DNA of 64,000 bases from Thermotoga caldifontis AZM44c09. GTDB taxonomy: Bacteria > Thermotogota > Thermotogae > Thermotogales > DSM-5069. The notes under the pieces are model-generated. The model saw only the letters and a list, made by a program, of their open reading frames with translations, was not told where the DNA came from and searched no databases. Position numbers and translations under genes: made by a program. The stretch is taken from assembly GCF_000828655.1 (NCBI RefSeq), contig NZ_AP014509.1, positions 682,001 through 746,000 of the forward strand, in the 5' to 3' direction. Positions within the stretch are counted from its first letter, which is position 1. Each line of letters starts with the position of its first letter. Positions 2,547-53,553 of the stretch are shown here, piece after piece.

Positions 2547-3396
2547 ATCGAACGTTGGCGATTCTTCTGCGCTGTGCCGCGGAAACTATTTGTTTCACGC
2601 GCTGTACTAGTCCTGGATCTTCGTTCGAAAGGTCCTCGTTCATTTCGAACTTCATCAGTATTCGATCGAGTTCTTCGTAGTTCAAACCCAGGATGAACTC
2701 ATCCGTCAGCCCGGGTATGAGGTCTGGTGTGGGTGGCCTCTCCACGATCTTTCGTGGCACGCCGATCAACTTTGCGAGCTCCATAACCTGTGTTTTGTAA
2801 AGGTGTGCTATGGGTTCGAAGTCGGCAGCACTGTCACCCCACTTGACGTACAGACCCGTCTTCAGTTCGGTTTTGTTCACGCAACCTGCAACTGCGTAAC
2901 CTCTTCTTTCTGCTTCGAAGTAGAGAAGGCACATTCGGATCCTGTGTTTTATTCTGTAGTAGGCGAGACCTTTTTTGAAAAACGCGTTACCGGCATCCAG
3001 AAGATCGTCCAGGTAGGGATCTCTTGAAAGTGTCCTCCATTTGTTCTTCACGTAGTTTTCCTGAATTCTTCTCGGAAAGATGAAGGCGGGAGGAAACATC
3101 CTGTAAATTCCCACCTTCCTGAGCAACGGTGTGATTGAAAAGATACGATGTGGAACGCCGAATTCTTCGCAGAGTTCGACGGCCAGTCGCGTGCTGGTTC
3201 TCGAAGAGTCGCGGTCTGGTAGTATCAATCCGAAAACGCGCTGAGCCCCGAGGGCTTTCGCACACAGGACTGTCACGACGGCGGAATCCACTCCACCGCT
3301 GACACCCACGACGACACCGTGATAGTTGTTGGTTTCAACGAACCTTCTGATGAATCCCTGTATCTCCTCAGAGACTGTCAGCGGATCGAAAGACAT
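2536..3396 (-). CDS. nadE: NAD+ synthetase, ammonia-dependent type
   Basis: NAD synthetase amidates nicotinate adenine dinucleotide with ATP in the last step of NAD formation. The ATP pyrophosphatase P-loop SGGVDS lies at residues 33-38 and the C-terminal part carries WGDSAADFEPIAHLYKTQV and PPTPDLIPGLTDE, both NadE signatures. At 286 residues there is no glutaminase domain, so free ammonia, or ammonia from a partner, would be the donor. The usual GTGNRSE motif reads GCVNKTE here and there is a longer mid-section with YRIKHRIRM, so this is a somewhat divergent branch and could be a paralogue. It overlaps the end of rnhA by 29 bases, so the two are probably one operon. Confidence 0.85.
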   Translation of the reverse strand: MSFDPLTVSEEIQGFIRRFVETNNYHGVVVGVSGGVDSAVVTVLCAKALGAQRVFGLILPDRDSSRTSTRLAVELCEEFGVPHRIFSITPLLRKVGIYRMFPPAFIFPRRIQENYVKNKWRTLSRDPYLDDLLDAGNAFFKKGLAYYRIKHRIRMCLLYFEAERRGYAVAGCVNKTELKTGLYVKWGDSAADFEPIAHLYKTQVMELAKLIGVPRKIVERPPTPDLIPGLTDEFILGLNYEELDRILMKFEMNEDLSNEDPGLVQRVKQIVSAAQRRRIANVRFTD

Positions 3397-4018
3397 CTTT
3401 CAACTCCTCCCAGTTCCAGTTGGTGTTTGAGTTCTTACTGACTGCTAACTTTGCGAGTTCGTCGGCCCTCTGGTTGCACGGGTCTTTCGAGTGTGCTTCG
3501 ATCTTTTCGAAATCGATGCGAACACCTTTTTTCTGTGCGAGTTTCACACTCTGCACGTAGATCGTGGTGAGTGATGTTTTCGCACTGTACTCGCCGCTGG
3601 CCCACTTCTGGAGGTTCTCAAAGTCATGTTTGATGATGAGATGCCTTGCACCCTTTCGGAGGGCATAATCGATCGTGAAGAGCACGGCGAGAACCTCTCC
3701 CGCCACGTTCCTCATTGTGGCAAGATCTGGTTTGTCTGTCCAGAAATAAAACTCGTGCAGGCCTTCGTCGTCACACAGCACGATCGCCGAACCGCAGACA
3801 CCGTCCCTGTAACTTCCATCGACACACGCGAAGATCGTACGTTCAGGCATTTTCGGACATCGCCAGGATTCACCCTTCAGGTACGCGAGCGCATCTTCTT
3901 TCGACGCAAAAGAGCGATATTCGGCGTTTGGATAACCTTCAACCTGTTGTTTTGCAATCTCCCAGTTCTCGTATACACCCGGCACTCTACCACGTTTCAC
4001 GGCGTAGTACTTGCGCAC
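3368..4018 (-). CDS. rnhA: Ribonuclease H with N-terminal hybrid-binding domain
   Basis: A type 1 RNase H that cuts RNA in RNA-DNA hybrids. The first 50 residues (RKYYAVKRGRVPGVYENW) form the small RNA-DNA binding domain also found in eukaryotic RNase H1. The catalytic domain follows from about residue 65: CVDGSY gives the first Asp, GEVLAVL the Glu, KHDFENL the third acid and NQRADELA the last Asp, so the active-site set looks complete. I chose GTG 4018 because GGAAGTG lies six bases before it and the resulting start matches family members; a TTG at 4033 is the alternative. The gene sits between a DUF368 gene and nadE in a tight minus-strand cluster. Confidence 0.85.
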   Translation of the reverse strand: MRKYYAVKRGRVPGVYENWEIAKQQVEGYPNAEYRSFASKEDALAYLKGESWRCPKMPERTIFACVDGSYRDGVCGSAIVLCDDEGLHEFYFWTDKPDLATMRNVAGEVLAVLFTIDYALRKGARHLIIKHDFENLQKWASGEYSAKTSLTTIYVQSVKLAQKKGVRIDFEKIEAHSKDPCNQRADELAKLAVSKNSNTNWNWEELKDVFRSADSL

Positions 4019-4023
4019 ACGGA

Positions 4024-4800
4024 TCACTTCCAAAAAGACCTTTTCGAAAGTCTGAAAGACGAATAGCTCGTGAGTGCAACGATCGAAAGGATTGCGATCA
4101 GTTTTGGAAGGTCGGTGTGCTCCTTCGTGAAAGGTTCTATCTTGAAGATGGAAGCCACGACCAGGCCGAACGTGAAGCTTCTGGTCTGGCTCGGAAATGT
4201 CTTGGTGAACCAGTCCATGATGATCGACATCAGGGCTATACCGAGGATCACACCAATTCCAAACGGAACAACGATTGAAAGATTCAGTTTCGCCACGCCT
4301 TCAATCACGGGACTGTAAGCACCGAGGATCAGGAGCACCAGAGAACCGCTGATACCAGGAAGAACCATCGCACATGCTGCAACGACGCCCGCCAGGAACA
4401 GGAAAGTCTGAGAAAGTTGCACCGCGCGAGACATCAACTCAACGGCAATCATCAACGTCGCACCGATCGTGAAGTGAATGACTTTGAATTTTCCAATCTC
4501 TTTGAACAATCCTGGTAACGAGCCCAGAATGAAGCCGAAGAAAACGGCATAGGCCACCGCGGGATAAACTTCGAGCAGTTTTTTCATACCGATGGAACCG
4601 ACGAATATCGCTGTGACGATCCCCAGGCCAACGGTTGCGATGAAAAAGATTTGTTCTCTCGTGAATCTGAACTTCATGAGGTTCGAAACCGCTCCGATCA
4701 GCTTTTCATAGATACCGAGTATGACAGCCATCGTAGCACCGCTCACACCGGGAATCAGGTTTGCGAGTCCTATCAAAAAGCCTCTGAGGATGTTCAGCAT
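4024..4800 (-). CDS. DUF368 membrane protein, likely polyprenyl-phosphate carrier
   Basis: A 258-residue, roughly eight-helix membrane protein of the DUF368 family. Two related signatures are visible, PGVSGATMAVILGIYE near residue 19 and PGISGSLVLLILGAYSPVIE near residue 150, consistent with an internally repeated transporter fold. Members of this family (PopT) have been linked to returning undecaprenyl phosphate to the inner face of the membrane for new rounds of wall and glycan synthesis; applying that role here is inference. ATG 4800 is preferred over TTG 4803 because GGAGG lies seven bases upstream. The gene begins one base inside the ABC ATPase stop codon. Confidence 0.85.
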   Translation of the reverse strand: MLNILRGFLIGLANLIPGVSGATMAVILGIYEKLIGAVSNLMKFRFTREQIFFIATVGLGIVTAIFVGSIGMKKLLEVYPAVAYAVFFGFILGSLPGLFKEIGKFKVIHFTIGATLMIAVELMSRAVQLSQTFLFLAGVVAACAMVLPGISGSLVLLILGAYSPVIEGVAKLNLSIVVPFGIGVILGIALMSIIMDWFTKTFPSQTRSFTFGLVVASIFKIEPFTKEHTDLPKLIAILSIVALTSYSSFRLSKRSFWK

Positions 4801-50526: not shown

Positions 50527-50569
50527 ACCCCTCAACCATCGTGTACAATGTGGTTTGGGAGCAGGCTTG

Positions 50570-50968
50570 ATGAAGGTTCTGTTCGAAACAATCATCGCGA
50601 TCTGTCTGAGCTTTCTGTTCATCATTTTAATCAGGAAACGTAAAGCCAAGCTGAAGAATATCGAAAACATCGTTTTTGAGAAGTTCAGCAAGAACGGTTG
50701 GACGCAGAAGCTGTCTTCCAGCCAGAACGGTGCCAGATACGTGCTGTTCGTTCGCGGGAATAAAGCGGCTGTTGTTGTCTTCGTTCGGAATTTCAACTTT
50801 GAGGTGTTCAAGCGCACCGTGATCCTGGCGCTTTTGAACCGTGCAGGACACATAGAAGTCTACCACTCGACGATCACCCACCATGTGCGAAAGGCTGTGG
50901 ACTTCTTCAACAAAAATAGAAGGCTTCACAAAATGAAAATGATCGCCGTCCGGAAAGGGATCACATGA
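50570..50968 (+). CDS. Membrane-anchored protein, degenerate Mrr-like fold
   Basis: A 132-residue protein with an N-terminal membrane helix (MKVLFETIIAICLSFLFIILI) and a basic stop-transfer RKRKAK. The soluble part can be laid over its neighbour at 50965: GNKAAVVVFVRNFN matches [12 protein letters not shown], and VILALLNRAGHIEVYHSTITHHVRKAVDFF matches [28 protein letters not shown]. The catalytic Asp and the QxK are missing, so it would be inactive. I chose ATG 50570. This relation is by eye only. No other family is recognised. Confidence 0.6.
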   Translation: MKVLFETIIAICLSFLFIILIRKRKAKLKNIENIVFEKFSKNGWTQKLSSSQNGARYVLFVRGNKAAVVVFVRNFNFEVFKRTVILALLNRAGHIEVYHSTITHHVRKAVDFFNKNRRLHKMKMIAVRKGIT

Positions 50969-51429
50969 TGTTGCAGCTCTTCGTTTTCGTTTCGCTCACA
51001 CTGTTCTTTTTGATGGTTCTGATCAAACGGAAGAAACCGGGAAAAAAGATTCGCACAGGATTTGTTCAGAACGGTCAGCAGTTCGAAGCTTATCTGTGCG
51101 AAATCTTCAGGAGGGCAGGCTACAGAGTCCGTCCTACCAAGCTCTCGCACGATTTCGGTGCCGATCTTTTGATCGAGAGCAGCGGAAAACTCGTGGTACT
51201 TCAAGCCAAGTATTGCAACAAACCGATCGATACCGGCGCGGTTGAGGAGGCCGTCGTTGCGGGGACAATATACGGGACAGGGTTCGTTGGCATCGTGACG
51301 AACAACGAGATACCGGAGCGGGTCAAAGAGTTTGCGAGGCAGTTCGAAGGTAAGACGTTCGTGAGGAAGATTTACCTCATCGACGGTCCGGCTCTGGAGA
51401 GGCTGAGGAGGAAGGAAAGGATCGTTTGA
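50965..51429 (+). CDS. Membrane-anchored Mrr-type restriction endonuclease-like protein
   Basis: A 154-residue protein with an N-terminal helix (residues 3-19), basic RKKPGKK, then an Mrr_cat domain: [19 protein letters not shown], the catalytic Asp in [11 protein letters not shown] and the Gln-x-Lys in [10 protein letters not shown], followed by [21 protein letters not shown]. Thus the PD-(D/E)xK nuclease site is present. Mrr-like nucleases cut modified or foreign DNA or process ends; tethering to the membrane suggests action on incoming DNA, which is inference. It overlaps the preceding degenerate copy by four bases and precedes kamA by 13. Confidence 0.8.
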
Positions 51430-51442
51430 GGGAGGAGAAAAC

Positions 51443-52699
51443 ATGCGTGACTTCAAGCAGATAGCACTCTGGAGGAACGTGAGTGAAAAAGAGTGGCGTG
51501 ACTGGAGATGGCAGCTGGCAAACAGGATAATGACGTTGGAACAGCTCGAACAGGTGATCAACCTGACGGACCAGGAACGTGAAGGTATAAAGCATTCACT
51601 GAAGTTTTTGAGAATGGCCATAACACCCTACTATGCGAGCCTCATGGATCCGGACGATCCCAACTGTCCGATAAGAAAACAAGCGGTACCCACGTCCAAG
51701 GAACTGCACATAAGCGATGGTGAAATGGTGGACCCATTGCACGAAGATGTCGACTCCCCCGTGAAAGGACTGACCCACCGTTACCCGGACAGGGTGTTGT
51801 TTCTGGTTACGGACCAGTGTGCGATGTACTGCAGGCACTGTACCCGCAGGAGGTTTGCGGGGGAAACCGACGCCCCGCTCGATCGAAAATACATCGATGC
51901 AGCCATAGATTACATAAAACAGAACAGAAAGGTGCGGGACGTGCTGATCTCCGGGGGAGACCCGCTGACTCTGTCTGACGAGAGGCTGGAGGAGATCATC
52001 TCGAGGCTCCGCGAGATAGAACACGTGGAGATCATACGTATTGGTACGCGCGCGCCTGTGGTTCTCCCCATGAGGATCACGGAATCTCTGGTGAACATGT
52101 TGAAGAAGTACCACCCGATATGGTTGAACACGCACTTCAACCATCCAAAAGAGTTCACAGAAGACTCGAAAAAAGCCCTCGCGATGCTTGCGGACGCAGG
52201 AATACCTTTGGGTAACCAGACGGTGCTGTTGAGGGGTGTCAACGACTGCCCAAGGATCATGAAACAACTCGTGCATGAACTCGTCAAGAACCGTGTCAGG
52301 CCTTACTACATATACCAGTGCGATCTGTCCAGAGGGCTTTCACACTTCAGAACCAGCGTCGCGAAGGGTATAGAGATCATAGAATACCTGCGGGGTCACA
52401 CCTCAGGGTTCGCCGTGCCGACGTACGTGATCGATGCGCCTGGTGGGGGAGGAAAGATACCGGTTGGTCCGCAGTATCTGATATCCATGGGTGAGGGCAA
52501 GGTGGTTCTGAGGAACTACGAAGGTGGCATCTTCGTCTATCAGGAGCCGAAAGACTACAGGAGCAACTGCGAACCTGATGAAGAAGTTGAAGGAGTGGCT
52601 TCGTTGCTCTCTGGGAAAGATAAATATCTGCTCCCACAGCAACTCGAAAGGGCCAGGAGGATCAGAGAGTGGAAGGAAAAGAGATCGTCTACATCGTAG
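51443..52699 (+). CDS. kamA: Lysine 2,3-aminomutase
   Basis: A radical SAM and PLP enzyme that turns L-lysine into beta-lysine. The cluster motif is C126-x3-C130-x2-C133 ([13 protein letters not shown]), [12 protein letters not shown] follows, and the PLP lysine is expected in [15 protein letters not shown] near residue 335. At 418 residues it is a full KamA rather than the shorter EpmB type. Uses could be lysine fermentation or making beta-lysine osmolytes; no abl or other kam genes are here. It overlaps the P-loop gene by 31 bases. Confidence 0.9.
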
Positions 52700-53553
52700 G
52701 TACCAAGAAGGGTGCCGGCAAGACCACGGTGCTGAACAGGATACTGAGAGATTGCGAAGGTTGTTGCGTCACGAGCGTGGGTATGGACGGCGAAGAGAAA
52801 GACAGTTTGACGGGTGAACCCAAACCTCGGGTGAGGGTCAACACGGCGCAGTTCGTTCTCACAGGCGAAAGGTTCCTCGATCTTTCGAGGTTCGAAGTTC
52901 TGGAGGTTTTCTCTTACAATCCGATCGCGGGTTACGAAACACTCGCCCGGCCGCTGATCGAAACGGACGTCATTGTGGCAGGAACGAGCGGTTCCACGAT
53001 CAGGCAGCTCTCACAGAATTTTCATTTTGCCCGGATCATCGTCGATGGGGCTTTGGACAGACTCGTTCACGCGGGAGTCGTGGATGGAGCGAAGATCTTC
53101 CTGGTGGTTCACGGTGAAGGCGCCGATAGCCTGAGGATCCTCAGGAAGGTTCTTTTCGCCTCGAAGTTGGCCAAGCCACCCAGCGAAGTTGAGATTATCG
53201 TGAAAGATCTGGAGGGTGTGTGGGCCATAACGAAATCCGGTCAACTTGTGAAGATTTCAGATTCCTGTCTGACGCTCAGACAAACGAACTACGATGAGTT
53301 TGAGTGGCTCTACGTTTCAGGTATCGTCACAACGTCGGTGCTGAGGTTGAGGGACAAATTGAACCTGTGTCTGAACAATCCTCTGGCCGTTGCAGAAGTG
53401 CCGGACAGTTTTGATAACATATATACTGTGAACAAAGTTGCGCTCGAAAAGGTTTTCATCAATTCATCCTCTCAACGTGGTTTGTCAACGACTTTGCGAA
53501 GGCTCTTGAAGGATTCATCCATCGAGATCGAGGATGTACTCACTCTCGATTGA
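52669..53553 (+). CDS. P-loop NTPase of unknown function coupled to kamA
   Basis: A 294-residue protein with Walker [12 protein letters not shown] near residues 10-20. Later parts include [37 protein letters not shown] and [28 protein letters not shown], which resemble a dethiobiotin synthetase/MinD-like fold with a DGxxDR motif. I do not recognise a named family. GTG 52669 follows AGGAGG and lies inside kamA, so the two are coupled; a role in activating, loading or protecting the aminomutase is possible, but this is context only. dnaN follows. Confidence 0.65.

Follow-up and report, generated by a model that had tools for sequence, protein, structure and literature searches.

Two overlapping genes in the window (the whole stretch of 64,000 nucleotides analysed, from Thermotoga caldifontis AZM44c09) encode proteins, P1 and P2, which we read as the two subunits of a single DNA nuclease, tethered to the membrane and facing the cytoplasm, P2 being the part that would cut and P1 the part that would bind or position the DNA; our belief in this reading and our doubt about it are evenly balanced. 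The earlier note on this DNA, which had proposed an active and an inactive nuclease copy joined in a regulated complex at the membrane, is partly supported as a whole. Of the two sites of action that it had considered, nothing points to the division site, while entering DNA is possible.

Anatomy of the gene pair

As the earlier note had described, the genes overlap and each product combines an N-terminal membrane helix with a domain of about 110 residues, which is borne out by the open reading frames, a 4-base overlap and hydropathy (Table 1). Both proteins open with a hydrophobic helix, about 18 residues long, after which comes a cluster of Lys and Arg, and the same arrangement is found in the orthologues, except for one P1 truncated by the end of its contig. 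Because of the cluster behind each helix, both domains should face the cytoplasm, and the predicted topology is that of a helix with its N-terminus outside and the domain inside the cell. Upstream of the pair, a TGTACAAT/TGTAAAAT box resembling an extended -10 element is present in Pseudothermotogaceae genomes (window 50542-50549, about 20 bases 5' of P1), in or next to the beginning of the divergent yggU gene, and suggests that P1 and P2 are transcribed from a promoter of their own, with a very short leader.

Table 1. Features of the P1/P2 gene pair. Positions refer to the window; open reading frames are given from the ATG to the last base of the stop codon.
Feature	Position	Strand	Evidence
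P1, 132 aa: membrane helix and catalytically dead PD-(D/E)xK-like domain (predicted)	50570..50968	+	ORF, AlphaFold2, Foldseek; no Pfam family
P1 membrane helix, residues 4-21, then RKRKAKLK	50579..50632	+	hydropathy/charge; AlphaFold2 helix 2-41
P1 soluble domain, residues 31-132, strongly basic	50660..50965	+	AlphaFold2, charge
ATGA start/stop overlap of P1 and P2, 4 bases	50965..50968	+	
P2, 154 aa: membrane helix and Mrr-like nuclease domain	50965..51429	+	ORF, Pfam Mrr_cat, AlphaFold2
P2 membrane helix, residues 3-20, then Lys/Arg cluster	50971..51024	+	hydropathy/charge; AlphaFold2 helix 2-21
P2 Mrr_cat domain, residues 36-147	51070..51405	+	Pfam
P2 Glu41 codon, invariant	51085..51087	+	
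P2 Asp67 codon, catalytic Asp, invariant	51163..51165	+	
P2 Gln80-Ala81-Lys82 codons, QxK motif; Q and K invariant	51202..51210	+	

An Mrr-like nuclease and its putatively dead partner

P2 matches the Pfam family Mrr_cat (PF04471) with 54.4 bits (cut-off 21, E 1.7e-14), and so do all 19 P2 orthologues, in which E41, D67, Q80 and K82 are invariant (19/19). Its AlphaFold2 model, built from the 19-sequence alignment (mean pLDDT 86.2), is matched in Foldseek by AF1548 (PDB 1y88) and Hjc; sequence searches of the PDB with P2 gave weak matches only. By its modelled core fold, together with the catalytic Asp and QxK, P2 is a member of the PD-(D/E)xK superfamily and, as judged from sequence, apparently a working DNA-cutting enzyme. 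Domain, fold and the E/D/QxK residues are thus shared with Mrr-like and Hjc-like nucleases (PF04471, archaeal Hjc and AF1548). Mrr itself and Hjc are soluble and self-pairing, whereas P2 has a membrane helix as its tether and is accompanied by an obligate, putatively dead partner.

For P1, no match to Mrr_cat was obtained in any of its 19 sequences, no Pfam or NCBIfam family was assigned, and a PDB sequence search returned nothing usable. The AlphaFold2 model (19-sequence alignment, mean pLDDT 91.5) nevertheless has the order of elements seen in the P2 model, namely helix, three strands, helix, strand, helix, strand. The top PDB match of the P1 model in Foldseek is the restriction endonuclease EcoT38I (E 9.4e-4), weaker than the matches of P2, with entries for RPB5, Avs3 and Cap4 lower in the list; the N-terminal domain of RPB5 we take to be an inactive relative of the PD-(D/E)xK fold. 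As unrelated folds also appear in this list, the fold assignment is good but not overwhelming. At the aligned catalytic positions, Asp and QxK are lacking in 19/19 P1 sequences, so that P1 can at most be an inactive member of the superfamily, and predicted fold and residue checks support its being a catalytically dead PD-(D/E)xK-like domain. Family search and single-chain models hence agree with what the earlier note had seen in the letters, that is, a second protein retaining the Mrr catalytic Asp and QxK and a first one with the same order of strands and helices but neither motif; P1 is not modelled as an unrelated fold.

At the sequence level, homology between P1 and P2 is weak and close to noise, with an hhalign score of 22.3 for the soluble domains, where 200 column shuffles reached at most 18.5, so that common ancestry rests mainly on the fold. 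Including the membrane helix gives probabilities of 89-92, which overstates the homology because the helices align; the soluble-only comparison is the fair one. This low similarity, and the fact that P1 has conserved residues of its own (F77, A109 and H120), would suit a P1 that shares the fold but works as a distinct membrane protein, independent of P2 and merely co-transcribed. Such independence is very unlikely, considering that P1 is never found apart from P2 in 103 genomes despite a changed neighbourhood and that a similar pattern appears again in a second lineage, the Bacillaceae (see below). The pair is under purifying selection, with dN/dS values of 0.11-0.39 for P1 (12 genome pairs) and 0.06-0.24 for P2 (pairs with unsaturated synonymous change). 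P1 as a decaying pseudogene was rejected on its dN/dS and on its reading frame, which is open in 19/19 genomes, one copy being cut by a contig end.

The soluble domain of P1 has a net charge of +8 to +15 and a pI of 9.7-11.5, that of P2 a net charge of -1 to +8. Expressed per 100 residues, the P1 domain carries +7.8 to +14.7 charges and exceeds all of 265 neighbouring proteins (median -0.3, maximum +6.3). This positive charge could instead serve binding to anionic lipid or RNA, not DNA. In the heteromeric nuclease that we favour, we infer a physical P1-P2 complex, DNA binding by P1, nicking and the kind of substrate. P2 would provide the sole active site and P1, as a pseudo-nuclease, a basic DNA-binding surface and the dimer partner. 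With a single active site in each dimer, nicks or single-strand cuts would be favoured over double-strand breaks, and tethering of both subunits at the inner membrane face would confine cutting to DNA that is held at the membrane or passing through it, sparing the nucleoid.

With an apparently active and a putatively inactive domain that share a modelled fold, the pair would fit the type of heteromeric active/dead nucleases to which Can1 and XPF-ERCC1 belong. In XPF-ERCC1 and MUS81-EME1, an active nuclease is likewise combined with a catalytically dead paralogue, which contributes DNA binding; these enzymes are soluble eukaryotic structure-specific nucleases and differ from the pair in this solubility, in their catalytic motif and in their helix-hairpin-helix domains. 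In Can1, an active PD-(D/E)xK domain nicks DNA together with an inactive one, whose basic residues are required (PMC6981274), so that a division of labour into cutting and gripping does exist between domains of this superfamily. In contrast to the two membrane proteins described here, Can1 is a single soluble chain that contains CARF domains and has cyclic tetra-adenylate as its activator (PMC6981274). If our reading is true, the active-plus-dead principle of Can1 and XPF-ERCC1 would be extended to a resident two-gene bacterial membrane system, and P1, belonging to no known family, would gain a testable role. In the open-licence PMC papers searched, no paper on a membrane Mrr with a dead partner was found, in line with the earlier note, which knew of no system with this makeup; nobody appears to have described the pairing of a membrane nuclease with a dead twin.

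Distribution and co-inheritance in Thermotogota

Profile searches of 103 Thermotogota genomes detected P1 in 19 of them; a 20th match (E 0.004) lies inside a 313-residue sugar-kinase-like frame and was judged unrelated. The P2 orthologue, defined by a group with E values of 1e-55 or better (next group 1e-22 or worse), is present in exactly the same 19 genomes and in no others. In each of these, P1 and P2 are adjacent, neither orthologue standing alone, so that the genes are not separate in most relatives and the adjacency that the earlier note had proposed to check holds. The genes overlap by 4-35 bases in 18 genomes, an arrangement typical of translational coupling, and abut in the remaining one.

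The pair is found in all members of two genera and keeps a constant place within each family. In one family (f1), a divergent LytR-family/YggU region lies on one side of it and a KamA-like gene on the other; in the other family (f2, including Thermotoga maritima) it stands alone, flanked by an AAA/VWA gene pair and a PD40 protein. Chance pairing was dismissed on the adjacency in 19/19 genomes, kept across both contexts, and this togetherness through two unrelated surroundings is the best sign that both proteins work together. The distance matrices of P1 and P2 correlate with r = 0.96, which is expected under vertical co-inheritance and alone no proof of interaction. A functional tie to the downstream KamA-like gene is weakened by the Thermotoga copy lying between unrelated genes, and a link to DNA uptake via ComEC proved uninformative, ComEC being encoded in 98/103 genomes. 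Between the KamA-like gene and dnaN, a gene at window positions 52669-53553 shows a P-loop-like start and no significant Pfam match, and is conserved in 10 of the compared neighbourhoods. In T. maritima (G021), a CBS neighbour of the pair gives a full-length match to the TM0935 structure entry 1o50; counting from TM0935, the pair should correspond to TM0931 and TM0932, and a search for these two names in open-licence PMC papers gave nothing. Since structural biologists have often worked with T. maritima, the two proteins are within experimental reach.

That the pair is inherited vertically and stably speaks against a mobile defence gene of the usual kind and, together with the lack of recognisable defence genes nearby, for a resident function. 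This has to be weighed against resemblances to SNIPE, whose topology (one helix, N-terminus outside, cytoplasmic nuclease domain) is the one predicted for P1 and P2 and which demonstrates that membrane tethering can spare the chromosome yet expose entering DNA (PMC13190303). Accordingly, the pair might form an anti-phage barrier of this type, with the tethered nuclease cutting phage DNA during injection and P1 recognising the entry machinery or the incoming DNA. Moreover, P2 of T. maritima resembles the PADLOC candidate defence family PDC-S02 (E 4.4e-14) and the nuclease part of ZorD. These matches, however, are confined to the shared Mrr-like nuclease domain, while the PDC-S02 profiles are 300-390 residues long. 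SNIPE is also one protein, with DUF4041 and a GIY-YIG nuclease, and of patchy occurrence (PMC13190303), whereas here two proteins, one of them an Mrr-like nuclease, are inherited vertically, neither DUF4041 nor GIY-YIG is present, and Pfam gives Mrr_cat in P2 and nothing in P1. Since the pair is, in addition, fixed in place in all members of two genera, with no defence genes among its identified neighbours, we regard a SNIPE-like barrier as unlikely.

Bacillaceae counterparts and other relatives

Scanning genome contigs with P2 revealed membrane Mrr-like genes in haloalkaliphilic Bacillaceae, several of which have a second, divergent Mrr-like copy adjoining the intact gene; P1, having no conserved stretch for such a scan, was sought outside Thermotogota only beside P2 relatives. 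All of these degenerate copies (8/8) keep the Asp but have Q, H, K or N at the Glu position and F, H, Y or L in place of the QxK Gln, and by these substitutions the copies are probably, albeit not certainly, inactive. A profile of the degenerate copies found them in 12/17 genomes, in each of which the intact gene is encoded on the other strand at a distance of 0.1-6.6 kb; of the remaining genomes, four have an intact-type gene only, and in one a weaker match lies some 20 kb from the intact gene. The two kinds differ in charge, the degenerate copies being basic and the intact ones acidic. Comparing soluble domains by hhalign, P1 scores 30.5 against the degenerate copies, and a profile comparison of P1 with the intact Bacillaceae nucleases gave no signal. 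P1 and the degenerate copies fall into separate groups of the tree, a placement limited by few columns and long branches, and the putatively dead partner of the Bacillaceae was apparently recruited separately from P1. At seven loci (L134, L135, L139, L140, L141, L142 and L144, at about 3000-4600), an intact membrane nuclease and a basic, degenerate paralogue with two helices are divergent neighbours.

The recurrence argues that the dead partner is selected for and not a decaying copy, and the Bacillaceae would offer a mesophilic test system. Membrane-tethered combinations of a cutting and a dead, DNA-gripping Mrr-like nuclease may constitute an unrecognised class that arose at least twice, in Thermotogota and in haloalkaliphilic Bacillaceae, and in which the positive charge missing from the live subunit is found on the dead one, a generalisation we put forward tentatively and with somewhat more doubt than belief.

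The Bacillaceae genes also bear on whether P1 acts as an inhibitor or immunity partner, holding P2 inactive at the membrane by pseudo-dimerisation until phage entry, envelope stress or a similar signal releases or activates the nuclease. The P1 gene lies upstream of P2 and overlaps it, the usual gene order for a neutralising partner, and neither P1 nor the P2 orthologue ever occurs without the other. However, as intact membrane Mrr-like nucleases exist elsewhere without a dead partner, the enzyme family as such does not require one. Furthermore, transcription of the two Bacillaceae genes is divergent, and several genomes have 5-7 kb between them, unlike a toxin-antitoxin operon, and among the 103 Thermotogota genomes the pair is inherited vertically and stably and lacks the patchy, mobile distribution of toxin-antitoxin systems. 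An inhibitory P1 is therefore improbable in our view.

Besides the subunits of the favoured heteromeric nuclease, further Mrr-like sequences were noted. The T. caldifontis genome has two more weak Mrr_cat matches (L151, G000:C1:877118-877348, and L152, G000:C1:227327-227665) in frames of 128 and 470 residues, respectively. A membrane Mrr-like gene is present in another Thermotogota family (f11; L050, L093 and L095) in a genome without P1; outside the Bacillaceae group, nothing matches the degenerate Bacillaceae profile better than this gene. Searching viral contigs with the P2 alignment returned no relative; Mrr-like relatives are nevertheless encoded at the viral contig loci L173 (2962-3603) and L174 (1888-3369), one of them having a membrane helix and the other forming the C-terminal part of a 494-residue frame.
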